This document shows positions 3,950 through 9,325 of a DNA stretch of 64,000 nt, in pieces. A model generated the notes under the pieces. The model had not been told where the DNA came from. It worked only from the letters and a program-made list of their open reading frames with translations, and ran no database searches. The stretch is from contig PQAO01000021.1 of the NCBI GenBank assembly GCA_003104995.1, positions 248,001-312,000 of the forward strand, written 5' to 3'. Source of the stretch: Dehalococcoidia bacterium (GTDB taxonomy: Bacteria; Chloroflexota; Dehalococcoidia; Tepidiformales; Tepidiformaceae). How positions within the stretch are numbered: position 1 is the first letter of the stretch; the number at the start of each line of letters is the position of its first letter. The position numbers and the translations under genes are program-made.

Positions 3950-4018
3950 AGCGAATTGCCTCCCCAATCGGTGCGCGCCCCAATGTTTCGGCGGCCCCTG
4001 CCTGCCGACCTATCTGGT

Positions 4019-4795
4019 ATGCGACACCCGCGGCCCTTCGCCCTCTTCCTCGCCGTTGGCGCCATCTGCTCGGCCGCCGGAATGGCAGCCACGCGCATGA
4101 GCGCCGAAGCGGTTGAAGTCGAACAGCCCGCACCACGTATTTCGGCACTCCACGCGGAATCCGCCGGGCTTTCAAACGCCGCTCCAACGGTTGTCACCGA
4201 AGCGTCACCCACCGCCGCCCCCACCCTGGCCATCCCGGAACCCACCGCTGAAGCCACGCCCCCGCCTGCCACCCCCATGGCTACCCCGGCATCCGCGCCC
4301 GAAAACCCGCCGGCTCCCGCACCGTCCGTCACCGCTCCCGTGCCCGTTTCCACGGTCCAGACGCTCCCATCGAGCGTGGAACAGCCTGTGGATATCATCG
4401 TGGTTTCCGAAAAGGCGGTTGGGCTCCTCGATGCGATGAACGCGGCCCGCATCGCCGAAGGCCTGCCCGCCCTCGAATGGGACACAACCCTCGAGGATGT
4501 CGCCTATGCGCGGGCCCGCAACCTTGTGGTGAATGGCTACTTCGACCACTACGCGCCCGACGGGGAGAGCGCGTTCTCGGAGTTGGCTGCACGCGGCGTT
4601 TCGTACGGCCTGGCCGGCGAGAACCTGGCCCGCAACAACTACCCCGAGCCCCGGACCGTGGCGGCCGCCTTCGATGGCCTGATGGCCAGCCCCGGCCATC
4701 GCGCAAACATCCTCGAAGAACGCTTCTCCCGCGTCGCCGTCGCCGCTGTCAGGGACGGCCGCATGTGGCTCTACGTCACCGTCTTCATGGACTGA
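4019..4795 (+). CDS. Secreted CAP/SCP-domain protein with Pro/Thr/Ala-rich linker
   Basis: 258 residues. A signal peptide (about 1-25) is followed by a long Pro/Ala/Thr-rich stretch (about 45-115) and a C-terminal CAP (SCP/PR-1) domain of about 120 residues: LLDAMNAARIAEGLPAL, then YFDHYAPDG, GENLARN and SPGHRANILEERF, the standard order of CAP motifs. These domains are exported and their role in bacteria is mostly unknown. A second CAP-like protein with a similar linker is at 26154-27125. The start at 4019 places the signal peptide at the very N-terminus; an upstream ATG at 3956 is less likely. Confidence 0.82.
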   Translation: MRHPRPFALFLAVGAICSAAGMAATRMSAEAVEVEQPAPRISALHAESAGLSNAAPTVVTEASPTAAPTLAIPEPTAEATPPPATPMATPASAPENPPAPAPSVTAPVPVSTVQTLPSSVEQPVDIIVVSEKAVGLLDAMNAARIAEGLPALEWDTTLEDVAYARARNLVVNGYFDHYAPDGESAFSELAARGVSYGLAGENLARNNYPEPRTVAAAFDGLMASPGHRANILEERFSRVAVAAVRDGRMWLYVTVFMD

Positions 4796-4804
4796 GCCAG
4801 TGCC

Positions 4805-4933
4805 CACCCTTCCACCGAAGGATCACCGGCTGGGACTCGAACAGCATCCAGTATGCGTATGATGATGCGAACCGGATGACCGGTCGAAGGTATGAGGTAT
4901 GAGGAGCGAGGCATGAGTGCGGTATGCGAGCGG
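4805..4933 (+). repeat. ~125-bp dispersed repeat, copy 1 (RHS remnant plus start-codon module)
   Basis: Nearly repeated at 5874-5998. The left part translates as an RHS/YD fragment (YAYDDANRMTG). The right part is a run of imperfect 7-mers (GTATGAG, GTATGAG, GAGCGAG, GCATGAG) ending in GAGGAGCGAGGC followed by ATG. This gives a ribosome-binding site and a start codon at 4913, fused here to the first RHS tip. The unit begins with an imperfect inverted repeat CCTTCC-acc-GAAGG. Confidence 0.8.
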
Positions 4934-5668
4934 GGTCGTGAGCCAACGGTCACGGGCAGCCTGGCGAACGAGTTCGACTTCGCCGGCCAGCAGACGGACG
5001 GGAGCACCGGCCTGCAGTACCTGCGGGCCAGGTACTACGACCCGGCGACGGGGACGTTCCTGAGCAGGGACCCGCTCGCCGCGCTGCCTTCGTGGCTCGG
5101 AAGCCCCTTCGGGTACGCATACGCTGACCCAATCGGGCTAAGTGATCCAACTGGACTGGATAGCCCATGGGATGGCGTGAGGAAGCGCGCGAATCCTTGC
5201 AACTGGGGAAGTTTGACAGGTGGAGCGTGTGGTAAGGCCGGTGAGGTCGTCGACGATATCCGCGGTGTCGGTGGCCCAGTGGCCGGCCCGGTCGTCCGGC
5301 CCTTGGTTATCGTAGGTGAATACCTCCGGGTGGTGGGAACCGGAGTATCAGACTGGATGCGGGACCATCCTGAGGAAATCAATCTGCTCATCGGCGTGGC
5401 ATTTGGTGTGGGGATCGCTGCATGCTGGGCTAGTGCGGCCGCATCGGTCGGAGGAGCGAGCCCCGCGTGCGTCGCCCTCATGTCGGCCTGGGGGGCTTGG
5501 AACGCGGCAATCGCCGCCGACCACTGGCGGAACAGTGGCGGTGATAGAACGGAGCGCTCGCTGCGGACGGCTATCGACGTGATCAATGCGCTTCCGATAA
5601 AGGGCATCAGGTGGCTTATGTTTCAGATACTCAGCGGGATGCTCGCCAACCCTTCCCCTGCGAGGTAG
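4913..5668 (+). CDS. Orphan RHS core fragment with variable C-terminal domain (tip 1)
   Basis: 251 residues. Residues ~8-90 are the RHS repeat-associated core: FDFAGQQTDGSTGLQYLRAR, YYDPATGTFLSRDPL and YAYADPIGLSDPTGLD. The rest is a non-conserved C-terminal region with hydrophobic stretches (INLLIGVAFGVGIAACWASA) of the kind that acts as an exchangeable toxin tip in polymorphic RHS toxins. The thousand-residue RHS shell is absent, so this is a displaced tip, either silent donor DNA or a remnant. The start is supplied by the repeat module (GAGGAG, then ATG at 4913). A small membrane protein follows at once. Toxin activity is inference; no catalytic motif is recognised. Confidence 0.6.
   Translation: MSAVCERGREPTVTGSLANEFDFAGQQTDGSTGLQYLRARYYDPATGTFLSRDPLAALPSWLGSPFGYAYADPIGLSDPTGLDSPWDGVRKRANPCNWGSLTGGACGKAGEVVDDIRGVGGPVAGPVVRPLVIVGEYLRVVGTGVSDWMRDHPEEINLLIGVAFGVGIAACWASAAASVGGASPACVALMSAWGAWNAAIAADHWRNSGGDRTERSLRTAIDVINALPIKGIRWLMFQILSGMLANPSPAR
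4940..5078 (+). repeat. RHS core direct repeat, copy 1
   Basis: The DNA encoding the RHS core motif (REPTVTGSLANEFDF to the LSRDPL segment) is nearly identical, at roughly 90 percent by eye, to 6772-6910. Sequence on both sides differs. This is the conserved block through which RHS tips recombine. Confidence 0.8.
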
Positions 5669-5673
5669 CCGAA

Positions 5674-5865
5674 ATGTCGAAGAAAGGGCCGGTGCTCATC
5701 ATTGTGCTTCTTGTTGGCGGGCTCGTTAACTTCGCACTTCTTGGCGAGTGGCAAATGTTGGCCGGGGCGGGAGCGGGGTTCCTCGTGGCTGCTCCGCTGG
5801 CGTACTCCTACTTTCGGCGCAGGAACTCGCGGCAGTCGGACCCAAAACCGCCGGCACCGGATTGA
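5674..5865 (+). CDS. Small two-helix membrane protein, candidate RHS immunity protein
   Basis: 63 residues starting five bases after the stop of RHS tip 1. Two hydrophobic segments (VLIIVLLVGGLVNFALL and MLAGAGAGFLVAAPLAY) are followed by a basic, polar tail (FRRRNSRQSD). The second half resembles the protein at 6437-6634 (W-x-MLAGAGAGFL against W-x-MVAGLGTGLA, then aromatic-Arg-Arg). Position directly behind a tip and membrane nature fit an immunity protein; this is inference from context. Confidence 0.5.
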   Translation: MSKKGPVLIIVLLVGGLVNFALLGEWQMLAGAGAGFLVAAPLAYSYFRRRNSRQSDPKPPAPD

Positions 5866-5873
5866 CCTCGTCT

Positions 5874-5998
5874 CACCCTTCCACCGAAGGATCACCGGCT
5901 GGGACTCGAACGTCATCCAGTATGGGTATGATGCGACCGGATGACCGGTCGAAGGTAAGAGGTATGAGGAGCGAGGCATGAGTGCGGTATGCGAGCGG
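5874..5998 (+). repeat. ~125-bp dispersed repeat, copy 2
   Basis: Second copy of the unit at 4805-4933, with the same CCTTCC-acc-GAAGG inverted repeat, an RHS fragment (IQYGYDATG, then stop), and the 7-mer run ending in GAGGAGCGAGGC plus ATG at 5978. Downstream sequence is unrelated to that after copy 1, so the unit has been joined to two different reading frames. Confidence 0.8.
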
Positions 5999-6232
5999 CA
6001 GCGGATTGCAACGACCGGCGCCTGCGCTACGGATATAGCCTGTTCCTTGGCAGTTGGTGGGGCCCTCCAGTTGCTCGCTGTTGTGGCTGCACTCACCACG
6101 GGCCCAGTTGGGTGGGGAGTTTTTCAGTCGCTGGGGGCGCTCTGGACGGGATATTCGGTTAAAGCTCAACAAGATCGGCCGTATGGTAGTCAAGCCGTAC
6201 CGGACTCGTGCCGGGTTGGGGGTGCGTGTTGA
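5978..6232 (+). CDS. Small membrane protein started within the repeat module
   Basis: 84 residues. The first residues (MSAVCER) come from the repeat and are identical to those of RHS tip 1; the rest has a hydrophobic stretch (LAVGGALQLLAVVAALTTGPVGWGVF) likely to form one or two helices. The segment VAALTT recurs in the protein at 6437. Translation would start at the repeat's GAGGAG plus ATG. The next frame begins inside its last codons (GTG at 6226). It may be a broken gene whose original N-terminus was replaced. No function is recognised. Confidence 0.4.
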   Translation: MSAVCERQRIATTGACATDIACSLAVGGALQLLAVVAALTTGPVGWGVFQSLGALWTGYSVKAQQDRPYGSQAVPDSCRVGGAC

Positions 6233-6429
6233 CCATTCGCTCAGTGCTGATGGCCATCGTCGTCACCGGTTCGGCTCTGGTAGCCGGCTATGCAACCTGG
6301 GCGCAGTGGTCCGGCAGCTTGTCGAACCCATGGTTGGTTGGCAGCGCGTGGTACGGCGCGATCCAGAGCTCGGTGTTTTGGCTCGTTTGGGCAGGGCGGC
6401 GGAAGCGCAAAGCGAAGTCCACGATATGA
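6226..6429 (+). CDS. Small membrane protein of the RHS patch
   Basis: 67 residues from GTG at 6226 (GTG at 6208 is an in-frame alternative). Two hydrophobic segments (VLMAIVVTGSALVAGYATW and WYGAIQSSVFWLVWAG) end in a basic tail (RRKRKAK). It overlaps the end of the previous frame and is followed eight bases later by the next, so the three frames look like one transcript. Candidate immunity-type membrane protein by context only. Confidence 0.42.
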   Translation: MLTIRSVLMAIVVTGSALVAGYATWAQWSGSLSNPWLVGSAWYGAIQSSVFWLVWAGRRKRKAKSTI

Positions 6430-6436
6430 GGGCCGA

Positions 6437-6634
6437 ATGAGAGACCGACAACGACCGTCAACATTGCCGGCGGTATCAGGTTCGGTGCTCGCATTTGCGT
6501 TGGTGGCGGCACTGACCACCCAAAGCTGGCCCATGGTGGCCGGCCTTGGCACCGGTCTTGCAGCAGCTGTGAGCGTGGTCGTTTGGCGAAGGCTAAGGAG
6601 CCGCTCCAGAGACACCCATGGGCTCAAGCGCTGA
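6437..6634 (+). CDS. Small two-helix membrane protein, paralogue of the 5674 protein
   Basis: 65 residues: a polar N-terminus, two hydrophobic segments (GSVLAFALVAALTTQSWP and VAGLGTGLAAAVSVVVW) and a basic tail (RRLRSRSRD). The second half resembles the protein at 5674. Its stop overlaps the start of RHS tip 2 as TGATG, so the two are probably translationally coupled. Immunity or membrane-anchoring roles are guesses. Confidence 0.45.
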   Translation: MRDRQRPSTLPAVSGSVLAFALVAALTTQSWPMVAGLGTGLAAAVSVVVWRRLRSRSRDTHGLKR

Positions 6635-7494
6635 TGCACGACGGGCGCTGGCACTACTACCTGGCCGACGGGCTTGGTTCAACGATGGTCCTTCCGGCGG
6701 CCGGAAGGATGGATGCTGCCGGTGATGTCGAGAACGGCTACACCTACGATCCTTCCCGGGAAGGATACGGCGAGCCAACGGTCACCGGGAGCCTCGCGAA
6801 CGAGTTCGACTTCGCGGGCCAGCAGACCGACGGGAGCACCGGCCTGCAGTACCTGCGCGCCAGGTACTACGATCCGGCGACGGGGGTGTTCTTGTCGAGG
6901 GAGCCCCTGGCTGTAGAACCAGCGTGGCTCGGGGGCGCCCACAGCTACTCGAACGCCAATTCGTGCAACCTGTACGACCCATCCGGTTTGGCGCCGGTCG
7001 ATTCTGACCCTGGACACGGCGGCGGCGGTCGCTCAGATTGTGGCGGCCTCTGGAGCAGAATCAAGAATCACGTATTCTCAATGATCCGAGCAGCGACAAA
7101 TTGGAGGACGGGTAATTACGGGAATTGGCATGTTCCGGAAAACAGGCCCTGCACTCCAAAAGAACGCGTGACGCACTACGCCGAGTGGAACCGCCACCAG
7201 CAAGGGCTGAAGAGAGCGCTCGAACGCTGGGGCGGATCGGGAAGACAGAAGCCGTGTGGTCCACCGCCAGGGGGATTTTTCGGGACGCTCACGATGCTGG
7301 TGGCGGAGTATCTGCAACACAAGACATTGGATGAGACGGCCGGATTGGTGAACGTGGAGACCGACGGCCGGACGAAGTTCCTCGGTAGGTACTGGAGCTG
7401 GACACCGCACTGGCCCGATCTTCCGGAAGTATCAGACCAAGATTGGCCGATTGGCGTGCCTCCAGCACCGCCAGTACCCATTCCGGTCCCGTAG
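6634..7494 (+). CDS. Orphan RHS core fragment with variable C-terminal domain (tip 2)
   Basis: 286 residues. Residues ~1-115 are RHS: YYLADGLGSTMVL, YTYD, FDFAGQQTDGSTGLQYLRAR, YYDPATGVFLSREPL and CNLYDPSGLA. The following ~170 residues are a variable tip with Gly-, Trp- and Pro-rich parts (WRTGNYGNWHVPENRPC) ending in PPAPPVPIPVP. No known nuclease or deaminase motif is recognised. An 18-bp palindrome is inserted in frame between YTYD and GEPTVTGS, adding PSREGY. The RHS shell is missing. A soluble 189-residue protein follows and is the candidate cognate immunity protein. Confidence 0.6.
   Translation: MHDGRWHYYLADGLGSTMVLPAAGRMDAAGDVENGYTYDPSREGYGEPTVTGSLANEFDFAGQQTDGSTGLQYLRARYYDPATGVFLSREPLAVEPAWLGGAHSYSNANSCNLYDPSGLAPVDSDPGHGGGGRSDCGGLWSRIKNHVFSMIRAATNWRTGNYGNWHVPENRPCTPKERVTHYAEWNRHQQGLKRALERWGGSGRQKPCGPPPGGFFGTLTMLVAEYLQHKTLDETAGLVNVETDGRTKFLGRYWSWTPHWPDLPEVSDQDWPIGVPPAPPVPIPVP
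6749..6766. repeat. Perfect 18-bp palindrome, copy 1
   Basis: ATCCTTCCCGGGAAGGAT, identical on both strands, inside the RHS tip 2 reading frame. The same palindrome recurs at 8140-8157, and weaker relatives (CCTTCC-acc-GAAGG) start both ~125-bp repeats. It looks like a short dispersed palindromic element. Confidence 0.75.
6772..6910 (+). repeat. RHS core direct repeat, copy 2
   Basis: Partner of 4940-5078. Similarity starts at the GEPTVTGS codons and stops shortly after the LSREPL codons, where the two tips diverge. Confidence 0.8.
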
Positions 7495-7504
7495 GGGTGG
7501 TGGC

Positions 7505-8074
7505 ATGATCTCGGATACTCTTAGGGCTTGGGTCCTTACGGTCGCGTCTGCGGAGCCCTTCACGATCGAATCGGAGGGGCACCGTGGTATTGAACTCCTC
7601 AAGCACCTTTTGGCAGTTACCGAGGAGCCCAATGAAGTAGTGCGGCTGCTCGGAGGTTCCATCGGCGGCTTTCTCTGGGAGGTGCAGCACGCTGCTGCGG
7701 AGGCTTGTTGGGACGACGCTCAAGACCTGTCTCTGAGGCAGGATGTGCTGGGCGGCATACCTGGCCTCCTTCAGGCCGCCTGTGCGATACACGCGGGATC
7801 GGATGCCGTGTTCCAGTTCTGGGACTCCTTCCTCGCCCCTTGGGAACGTGAGCACCACGGAAATCACGAACATCCCCTGGTTGCCAGTGTCGCAAGTGCC
7901 CTTCTGGAACAGCTGGATGGGGCACGCGATGAGTGTCTGCAGATGAGTGCTCTCCACGGGATCAATCACTTGAGGGATTTGAGCACCGCCAACGCCGCCA
8001 AGGAGCTACTTCGCTATCCTTCTCCTGAGGTCCAGGAGTACGCAGGCCGTGCGCTGGCATTTCGGGCGCCCTAA
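7505..8074 (+). CDS. Candidate immunity protein for RHS tip 2 (HEAT-like helical protein)
   Basis: 189 residues, acidic, no signal peptide or membrane helix. The pattern of amphipathic helices (EVVRLLGGSIGGFLWEV, then AAKELLRYPSPEVQEYAGRALAF at the end) suggests HEAT-like repeats. It begins ten bases after the stop of RHS tip 2; GGGGTGGTGGC precedes the ATG. Tip-immunity gene order suggests it neutralises the upstream tip; no family is recognised, so this is inference. Confidence 0.55.
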   Translation: MISDTLRAWVLTVASAEPFTIESEGHRGIELLKHLLAVTEEPNEVVRLLGGSIGGFLWEVQHAAAEACWDDAQDLSLRQDVLGGIPGLLQAACAIHAGSDAVFQFWDSFLAPWEREHHGNHEHPLVASVASALLEQLDGARDECLQMSALHGINHLRDLSTANAAKELLRYPSPEVQEYAGRALAFRAP

Positions 8075-8139
8075 CGGGGAGGGTCGCAAATCCTTGCGGG
8101 GTGCATGGCTCGGCAGCCGTCGCCGAAACAAGGACGACG

Positions 8140-8157
8140 ATCCTTCCCGGGAAGGAT
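8140..8157. repeat. Perfect 18-bp palindrome, copy 2
   Basis: Same palindrome as at 6749-6766, here in the non-coding gap between the candidate immunity gene and tRNA-Val. It is followed by a short RHS-like remnant (ACCTGTACGGCGCGGGACTG). With the tRNA it marks the right end of the RHS patch. Confidence 0.75.
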
Positions 8158-8205
8158 ACCTGTACGGCGCGGGACTGTCCGCGATGAAGCAGTCCGGGAG
8201 CTGGT

Positions 8206-8278
8206 GGGCGATGAGGGGCTCGAACCCCCGGCCTTCTCGGTGTAAACGAGACGCTCTAACCAACTGAGCTAATCGCCC
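8206..8278 (-). tRNA. tRNA-Val (anticodon TAC)
   Basis: Full cloverleaf on the minus strand: acceptor GGGCGAT/ATCGCCC, D arm GCTC...GAGC, anticodon stem TCTCG/CGAGA with loop TTTACAC (anticodon TAC), T arm with TTCGAGC. CCA is not encoded. It lies at the right border of the RHS patch. Confidence 0.95.
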
Positions 8279-8308
8279 GCAGCTCTCCGAGTGTACCGCG
8301 AACCGCCC

Positions 8309-9325
8309 TTACCTTGCCTCCGCGATCGCCGTCAGCGCCGCCACCGATGTCTCCAGGTCCAGCCCCGAAATGCGCTCCGCTTTCACCCGCGCCCGGAAGT
8401 CCAGCTCGTTCCACCGCCCTTCCCGCGCGTAGGGCGCCAGGTCGGGGTAGTTCCGCGCCGCCAGCCGCAGGTCCATCAGCTGGCGGTTCCGCTCGACCGT
8501 CTGCCGCGCTTCGCCCGAGGCGATCGCCGCCTCGATCCGGGCGTTTCGTCGCCCCAGCGCCTCAGCGGCGAGCGACGGGTCATCGAGGTACGCATCCAGC
8601 GGGGCCGCGGCCAGTAGCCGTGCCGCCGAGAGCGTGCCCACACCCGGGATGCCCGGCAGGTTGTCGCTCGCGTCGCCGCTCGCGGCCCGGTAGTCCAGGT
8701 ACCGCTCCCGCGGGAATACCACCGGCGCCGCGGACGAATCGCGCGGACAGGCCGCCTCGGCGAAGTTGGTAACATCGATGACCAGCCGCTTCACGGTGGC
8801 GTAGATCGACACGCGCTCATCGACCAGTTGCAGGAAGTCCTTGTCGGTCGAGGCAATCCGCACGTCGCTTTCCGGTGCCTGGTGCACCGCCGCCGAGATC
8901 AGGTCGTCCGCCTCGGTGTTCGTGCCGCGCAAGACGGTCAGGGGCAGGTCCGCGCTCAACTCGGTGAACTGCGCGATGGCCGCGACGACGTACTGCTCGT
9001 TCTCCATGAACGAGGGGTCGCTTTCCCGGCCAGTCTGGTATGGCGGGTAAATCCCCCGCCGGCGCAGGGGCCGGCCCTCGTCGAACGCGACCACCAGCCG
9101 CGTCAACCGCCGCGGTGCCTCGCCGAACATCGATGCCTGGCCGGCGCGACGGCCCCTGCTGTCGTCCGGCGGCTCGCCCGCCCGCACTGCCAGCCCGATC
9201 ACGCTCTGGGTCAGGCCCAGCAGCGCCGCCCGTTCCTTCTTCTCGGGCGTGTCGGCGCCCATCGGCCGCCGGAGCGCGTGAAAGCCCGCCCAGGCCACGT
9301 TGTTGCCATCGATGATGAGGAGCAC
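8309..9325 (-). CDS. 5'-3' exonuclease (PolI N-terminal/flap endonuclease family)
   Basis: 338 residues. It matches the 5'-nuclease domain of DNA polymerase I as a stand-alone protein: LLIIDGNNVAW at the N-terminus, TEADDLISA and ASTDKDFLQLV for the metal-binding acidic cluster, and ASGDASDNLPGIPGVG for the helix-hairpin-helix that grips DNA. Expected role: removal of RNA primers or 5' flaps. An insertion around residues 45-75 (Arg/Gly-rich) is unusual. GTG is the start; no strong ribosome-binding site is visible. Confidence 0.87.
   Translation of the reverse strand: MLLIIDGNNVAWAGFHALRRPMGADTPEKKERAALLGLTQSVIGLAVRAGEPPDDSRGRRAGQASMFGEAPRRLTRLVVAFDEGRPLRRRGIYPPYQTGRESDPSFMENEQYVVAAIAQFTELSADLPLTVLRGTNTEADDLISAAVHQAPESDVRIASTDKDFLQLVDERVSIYATVKRLVIDVTNFAEAACPRDSSAAPVVFPRERYLDYRAASGDASDNLPGIPGVGTLSAARLLAAAPLDAYLDDPSLAAEALGRRNARIEAAIASGEARQTVERNRQLMDLRLAARNYPDLAPYAREGRWNELDFRARVKAERISGLDLETSVAALTAIAEAR

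Follow-up and report, generated by a model that had tools for sequence, protein, structure and literature searches.

An RHS tip/immunity array, probably a displaced polymorphic-toxin segment, beside tRNA-Val in a Dehalococcoidia genome

A stretch of 64,000 nucleotides from a Dehalococcoidia bacterium (contig PQAO01000021.1; C21:248001-312000 of its own assembly, here called the window) contains a dissociated array of RHS tips and immunity-type genes. The array spans window positions 4805-8198. It holds four RHS pieces, three tips (two intact, one truncated) and small genes downstream of them. The favoured reading, held at a probability of about 0.8, is that a segment of an RHS polymorphic-toxin array, consisting of tips with immunity-type genes, has been displaced and inserted between a CAP-domain gene and tRNA-Val, and that its tips are probably undelivered. 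Four observations carry this reading: the anatomy of the array, the absence of matches to an RHS shell, the insertion relative to related genomes, and the recurrence of tip and immunity genes as pairs. On this reading the tips would be toxic, the proteins encoded behind them would neutralise them, two of the pairs would act at membranes, and some members may still be in use.

Anatomy of the array

The features of the locus are as follows, with genes referred to below by their first coordinate.

4805-4880, + strand: RHS YD-repeat piece, reading ...ITGWDSNSIQYAYDDANRMTG; left end of the array, adjoining a short palindrome; direct repeat with 5874-5998 and matching RHS genes of relatives
4871-4933, + strand: 63-bp repeat with AGGAG and the ATG (4913) that opens the tip 1 open reading frame (ORF) in frame; second copy at 5936-5998, 98% identical
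4913-5668, + strand: end of an RHS core (about 4940-5155; TIGR03696) and tip 1 (5156-5665), predicted to be membrane-acting from its hydrophobic peaks; homologous C-terminal fragment on contig C30 of the same genome
5674-5865, + strand: candidate immunity gene to tip 1, 63 residues, two hydrophobic segments; counterpart after the tip 1 relative (tip 1′) on C30
5874-5998, + strand: second YD-repeat piece and 63-bp repeat, recognised by repeat comparison, fused to a truncated tip
5978-6232, + strand: truncated tip 2, an 84-residue ORF that lacks its RHS core and its N-terminal half; matches the tip 2 relative (tip 2′) on C30
6250-6429, + strand: candidate immunity gene to tip 2, small predicted membrane protein, alternative ORF start at 6208; matches the gene after tip 2′ on C30
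6440-6634, + strand: small protein with two hydrophobic segments (from its hydrophobic peaks) and no significant family, a possible orphan immunity gene
6634-7494, + strand: end of an RHS core (TIGR03696) and tip 3 (6988-7491), modelled as helical, with Cys and a Trp/Pro-rich tail; 39% identical relative in the array of genome G002
7505-8074, + strand: candidate immunity gene to tip 3, 189 residues, HEAT-like helical repeat in an AlphaFold2 (AF2) model; relatives behind related tips
8132-8198, + strand: RHS stub (DPSREGYLYGAGLSAMKQSGSW) without tip, running into tRNA-Val; matches an RHS gene at locus L047 and the C30 stub
3956-4795, + strand: left flank, CAP-domain protein (PF00188, E-value 1.6e-18), kept beside tRNA-Val in relatives
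8202-8278, - strand: right flank, tRNA-Val (TAC), its 3′ end abutting the array

The RHS-associated core model TIGR03696 passes its curated cut-off in the ORFs at 4892-5665 (E 1.3e-16) and 6634-7491 (E 7.5e-15), and a whole-genome search with the same model scores these two cores at E 6.6e-17 and 4.3e-15. The end of the core joins the variable tip at a DPxG-type junction. The core DNA at 4940-5124 and 6772-6956 is 82% identical over 185 nt, and the tips beyond the junction are unrelated. An earlier note on this DNA had described two RHS core fragments with different C-terminal domains, which these results bear out. Its inventory of two RHS pieces was incomplete, as the twice-copied YD-repeat piece and the stub at 8132-8198 bring the number to four, and a truncated third tip lies at about 5998-6232. 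The YD-repeat piece and the 63-bp repeat together make up about 129 bp at 4805-4933, with a second copy a few nucleotides shorter at 5874-5998 (95% identity over 60 nt, 98% over 63 nt). The 63-bp repeat, for which no further copy was found in the genome at up to 3 mismatches, supplies a ribosome-site-like AGGAG and an in-frame ATG ahead of tip 1 (4913) and the tip 2 remnant (5978), so that translation of these two tips is possible. The stub reads YLYGAGLSAMKQSGSW; over 68 nt it shares 88% identity with an RHS gene from a genome of the same genus (L047, G004:C298). With a YD-repeat piece at its left and an RHS stub at its right, the array starts and stops within RHS coding sequence. Its GC content is 0.62, compared with 0.67 in the flanks.

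The two core copies differ mainly by silent changes, with nonsynonymous divergence (dN) of 0.065 and synonymous divergence (dS) of 0.380; as a substitution pattern, this low dN relative to dS is evidence of constraint in the past rather than of present use. Beyond the RHS core, the array proteins match nothing above cut-off in Pfam, NCBIfam or PADLOC, and a PADLOC scan of five window proteins gave 0 families at E up to 0.1. As the tips match nothing in these three collections, it is fair to regard their families as unnamed. The suggestion of the earlier note that the tips may be new toxin domains goes further than this absence of matches shows, and tip 1 is marked by membrane-type segments rather than by the missing catalytic motif on which the suggestion had been based.

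Tip/immunity pairs and their recurrence

A profile built from tip 1 and its closest relative (G012, 33% identity over 52 residues) matched 2 of 393 genomes of the class and gave a second match in the same genome at C30:11049-11210 (E 4.5e-8); a DNA search of this genome with the array had returned only the array itself. The region at C30:11022-12378 (L106:7023-8379) duplicates units 1 and 2 of the array in the same order, without cores and together with an RHS stub. It opens with the C-terminal 68 residues of tip 1′ (50% identity), whose stop is overlapped by the gene for a 59-residue hydrophobic protein that is 40% identical over 45 residues to the product of 5674 (E 3e-4). An RHS junction with a full-length tip 2′ follows (179-residue ORF), the C-terminal part of which is 44% identical over 73 residues to the window remnant (E 3e-15), and then a 58-residue hydrophobic protein with 48% identity over 52 residues to 6250-6429 (E 9e-16). 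At the end of the copy lie a piece of RHS repeat and a stub that shares 86% identity with that of the window over 66 nt. The presence of a full tip 2′ identifies window positions 5998-6232 as a tip that has lost its core and its front half. The tip 1/5674 and tip 2/6250 pairs thus recur in equal order at two loci of one genome. Between the two loci, third-position differences number 45 in tip 1, 38 in its immunity gene, 52 in tip 2 and 32 in its immunity gene, against 26, 35, 34 and 25 first-position differences, respectively, and dN/dS is about 0.3 to 0.5 where dS is computable.

Hydrophobic peaks number three in tip 1, one in the tip 2 remnant, two each in 5674 and 6440, and one in the ORF at 6208-6429; none of the 140 other window ORFs of 60-90 residues has two or more, unlike 5674 and 6440. 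The two hydrophobic segments in each of 5674 and 6440 and the single one in 6250 make it probable that tips 1 and 2 act on membranes and would be countered by 5674 and 6250. Small hydrophobic immunity proteins are described as countering ionophore toxins (PMC11630599), and the likeness of the array to the contact-dependent inhibition (CDI) ionophore toxins with two-helix membrane CdiI proteins and to the Rhs pore-former Tse5 covered there consists of a hydrophobic toxin end and a small hydrophobic immunity protein. The two-helix CdiI proteins of that account are membrane hairpins of 72-100 residues; 5674 (63 residues) and 6440 (64 residues) have two hydrophobic peaks, and the 6208-6429 ORF has one.

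The third pair recurs in a same-genus genome, G002, whose array holds a tip 3 relative (39% identity, E 2.7e-22) with a stop overlapping the start of a 7505 relative (28% over 127 residues, E 2e-11). A further 7505 relative (26%) stands behind a divergent tip of the same array. A scan of genome contigs for the tip 3 pair found one locus, on JADYYG010000013.1 (Dehalococcoidia bacterium), which corresponds to G002:C13. A profile of tip 3 and three G002 tips matched 3 of 400 genomes of the phylum, namely the genome itself, G502 weakly, and the distant Chloroflexota genome G535, in which it hit an RHS tip at E 4.7e-5. The corresponding 7505 profile matched 3 of 393 genomes. Tips with a Cys...His...Gln...Cys pattern like that of tip 3 are common in other phyla. 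Sequence searches against solved structures gave nothing credible. With relatives found for 5674, 6250-6429 and 7505, the description of the small genes as non-conserved in the earlier note no longer holds.

Structure prediction, which had been proposed for the tips and their partners, succeeded for 7505 and much less so for tip 3. The AF2 model of 7505 has nine helices at a mean model confidence (pLDDT) of 86.2, and its best structural matches are helical repeats, some of them designed and others HEAT/TOG proteins (Z up to 11.2 and root-mean-square deviation 3.8 over 154 aligned residues), in a range where helical repeats match generically. The match to Pfam HEAT_2 reaches only E 0.019, which is below the cut-off of that family. 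By its model, 7505 is a HEAT-like helical repeat and no new fold; the kind is already described as Imm-HEAT (PMC3482391), and the proposal of a new immunity family is not upheld. The low-confidence model of tip 3 (pLDDT 58.9) consists of four helices and a disordered Trp/Pro-rich tail, and tip 3 would be a helical tip countered by 7505. This resembles the Imm-HEAT proteins with Ntox34 in PMC3482391, where an all-helical RHS tip is likewise followed by a HEAT-repeat immunity protein. Pfam at E up to 1 found no family in 6634-7491, Ntox34 included, and the GNxxD and WxCxH motifs were not seen by eye.

Two further 7505 relatives occur in G020, one of them within a run of immunity-like genes without toxins. 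This run (L096:3403-6421, G020:C2) has no RHS cores and combines relatives of 7505 (E 5.5e-12), of an L038 immunity protein twice (1e-4 and 8e-6) and of an immunity protein from L024 (9e-9). The run looks like a heterogeneous polyimmunity locus, of which extended examples are placed in only four other lineages by the account in PMC3482391. Two other candidate relatives of 7505 were dropped: kinship with the third G002 immunity protein (L033:7972-8424) is unsupported (hhalign probability 0.7), and the frame of a match on C30 overlaps other genes.

Insertion site and missing shell

DNA of G004, the closest relative, is 86.5% identical to the window as far as the CAP gene extends (4795), and a match of 88% resumes at the 3′ end of tRNA-Val (8201). 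Between these points G004 has 1.4 kb of other DNA with a 443-residue ORF on the opposite strand. That ORF (L083:8713-10044, G004:C17) is unrelated to the array and has a lipoprotein-like start. In six genomes of another genus of the family (G016, G024, G028, G030, G032 and G034), only 17-52 nt separate the last matched CAP codon from tRNA-Val, whereas G007 and G009 have 0.73 and 0.78 kb there. The site survey covered 22 exonuclease loci and seven longer stretches, the remainder being without a CAP gene beside the tRNA or too short to tell. As the gap is closed or otherwise filled in relatives, the array is most simply read as an insertion into the CAP/tRNA-Val gap in the lineage of the window. 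The gap may be an insertion hotspot, since the closest relative holds an unrelated ORF there. The locus provides a clean empty-site comparison for the movement of RHS cassettes. The array ends at TGG, which is also the complement of the CCA end of the tRNA.

The assembly comprises 3.24 Mb in 39 contigs and is 91% complete. It holds exactly two RHS cores, both in this array, and RHS_repeat has no match in it. A 1001-residue shell query from a same-family genome likewise found no match at E 1e-10; the same query does recover the array RHS of same-genus G002, in a frame of 539 residues (E 4.6e-20). The earlier note had named the absence of both a full RHS gene and similar tip/immunity pairs as telling against its idea: a full gene was indeed not found in this genome, but similar pairs are present in relatives. 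Its central proposal of displaced polymorphic-toxin cassettes without a shell has gained support, as there is no shell match, the insertion site is closed in relatives and the pairs recur as pairs.

Comparable arrays occur in related genomes. An RHS core occurs in 18 of the 61 genomes examined, and in 13 of 37 of the same family when this one is counted; in many core-bearing genomes the cores form arrays with spacings of 1 to 2 kb. On G002:C13, five cores come with five tip/immunity units and the last RHS piece is tipless; similar runs occur in G012, G021, G005, G025 and G051. G005 also has a 2144-residue RHS gene on another contig. From these arrays 36 tips were collected, excluding those cut by contig ends or shorter than 80 residues, and 33 of them entered alignment A5 (L022, L046 and L048 were left out as doubtful); 29 of 32 downstream proteins entered alignment A6 together with two from G020. 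Scans of the 33 tips gave one ribonuclease (3.1e-9), two DUF6973, one pre-toxin TG and one DUF4258, and those of the 31 downstream proteins gave one Barstar (4.5e-15), one SMI1_KNR4 (4.1e-11) and one DUF2283. By eye, the ribonuclease and Barstar members adjoin in L049, and the DUF4258 and DUF2283 members in L043. The two DUF6973-type tips, assigned by eye to L038:8256-11220 (G005:C2) and L047, are followed by small proteins with a lipoprotein-like start.

Known systems and rival explanations

The locus belongs to a known kind, that of dissociated rhs tips and orphan C-terminal toxin (CT)/immunity modules, and differs in that no shell was found in the genome and the insertion lies beside a tRNA. 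In the Enterobacteriaceae, dissociated rhs tips are described as GC-poor strings of core fragments and tips, some fragments tipless, downstream of intact rhs genes (PMC2935791). The array shares the low GC content, the core fragments of variable length with tips and the tipless core fragments, and departs from that description by its place in the CAP/tRNA-Val gap and by the fact that the genome yielded no intact rhs gene. A position downstream of an intact same-clade rhs gene was not found in this incomplete assembly; it is the typical setting of dissociated tips and does not define them. Orphan CT/immunity modules have been shown to be capable of function, and production of an orphan immunity protein is reported (PMC3150448). 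The orphan cdiA-CT/cdiI modules described there likewise form arrays of detached toxin ends with intact downstream immunity genes; their carrier is CDI rather than RHS, and most of those orphan CTs are given as lacking initiation signals, whereas two units here have the AGGAG and ATG repeat. PMC3482391 treats cassettes as toxin-immunity pairs, covers Imm-HEAT and polyimmunity loci, and lists chloroflexi among the lineages rich in such systems. A literature search found no paper joining Dehalococcoidia, RHS and toxin, and papers joining Chloroflexota, polymorphic toxin and RHS appear to concern other matters. With this array the dissociated-tip pattern known from rhs genes now includes a Dehalococcoidia lineage, and three candidate toxin/immunity pairs from unnamed families become available, which are small and lend themselves readily to testing.

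In the proposed mechanism, three former RHS toxin genes have left their 3′ ends in the array, with an immunity-type gene behind each. Delivery of the tips is improbable, given that the genome yielded no shell gene and that the tip ORFs start inside the array without an export signal. The tips would serve at most as recombination donors for incoming RHS genes and would otherwise be eroding remnants, while the immunity genes, provided that they are transcribed, would give protection from related RHS users. Undelivered toxin remnants with retained immunity genes, now eroding, are the most likely state of the locus. Displaced arrays can persist in an assembly that yields no shell gene, an observation relevant to whether cells retain them for the sake of immunity.

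Several points weigh against this account. No promoter-like site was found in the array, so that expression of the immunity genes has to be presumed. The match between the immunity proteins of tip 1 and tip 1′ is the weakest of the recurring pairs (E 3e-4), and 7505-like genes sit behind two rather different tips in G002. Among 32 pairs, hydrophobic tips are accompanied by membrane immunity genes in 6 of 13 cases compared with 3 of 19, which is not significant (p 0.11; 0.06 in a subset of 26 pairs). Finally, a shell gene could be missing from an assembly of 39 contigs that is 91% complete.

A serious, if minority, possibility is that the array is a dead relic, a decaying insertion that expresses neither toxins nor immunity genes. 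Unit 2 without its core and half its tip, the tipless last RHS piece, the C30 copy without a whole core and the lack of a promoter-like site are all in keeping with decay. The frames of tips 1 and 3 and of all four small genes are nevertheless still open, and the third-position bias and dN/dS of about 0.3 to 0.5 also speak against it, though this history includes time before displacement. It is less likely that a complete RHS gene exists in the species but is absent from the assembly, the array being its silent, relocated reservoir. In its favour stand the 91% completeness and 39 contigs of the assembly, the tendency of RHS genes to assemble badly, and a 763-residue RHS frame in same-genus G004 that runs off its contig. 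However, an array is also present in G021, assembled into four contigs at 95% completeness, where no RHS frame with a core exceeds 543 residues; arrays without a full gene therefore occur in better assemblies.

A more speculative and rather unlikely proposal is that in this Dehalococcoidia family RHS arrays persist, duplicate and move between sites of genomes without an RHS shell gene, and that they are retained as independent modules of immunity or of intracellular toxin-antitoxin action, the 63-bp repeat giving detached tips a ribosome site and start codon. If true, shell-less RHS cassettes would be a self-sufficient genetic unit and not the debris of delivery genes. For this array in particular, it is improbable that the orphan tips work inside the cell as toxin-antitoxin modules starting at the ATG of the 63-bp repeat. 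The AGGAG and ATG stand in frame before tip 1 and the tip 2 remnant, and orphan rhs-CT genes of Salmonella are reported to be expressed from internal promoters as type II toxin-antitoxin modules (PMC7043789). The Salmonella modules share a shell-less rhs-CT, an immunity gene and internal start sites with the array; they differ in that a full-length rhs gene is adjacent there. Against such a role, tip 2 is truncated, tip 3 lacks the repeat, and no promoter-like site was found in the array. That the short RHS ORFs are complete exported proteins needing no large shell is very improbable, for although such ORFs recur across the family, those of the window begin in the repeat or inside RHS sequence without a signal segment, and the long RHS protein of G005 does have, by eye, a hydrophobic segment near its N-terminus.

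Short palindromes with CCTTC/GAAGG arms and a 4-nt loop lie in RHS coding pieces of the window (4808-4821, 5877-5890, 6749-6766 and 8140-8157), in L106 near 8280-8340 and in L047 near 1064. A role as a cassette-specific recombination site was considered and dropped: three of the five places of the pattern TCCTTCNNNNGAAGGA in this genome are in RHS remnants, but the others are outside. The pattern is present in all 5 genomes of the genus, also outside RHS DNA, with three copies within 450 bp on G004:C3 without an RHS match, and it therefore looks like a dispersed short palindrome. The copies at 6749 and 8140 are in frame and read PSREG.

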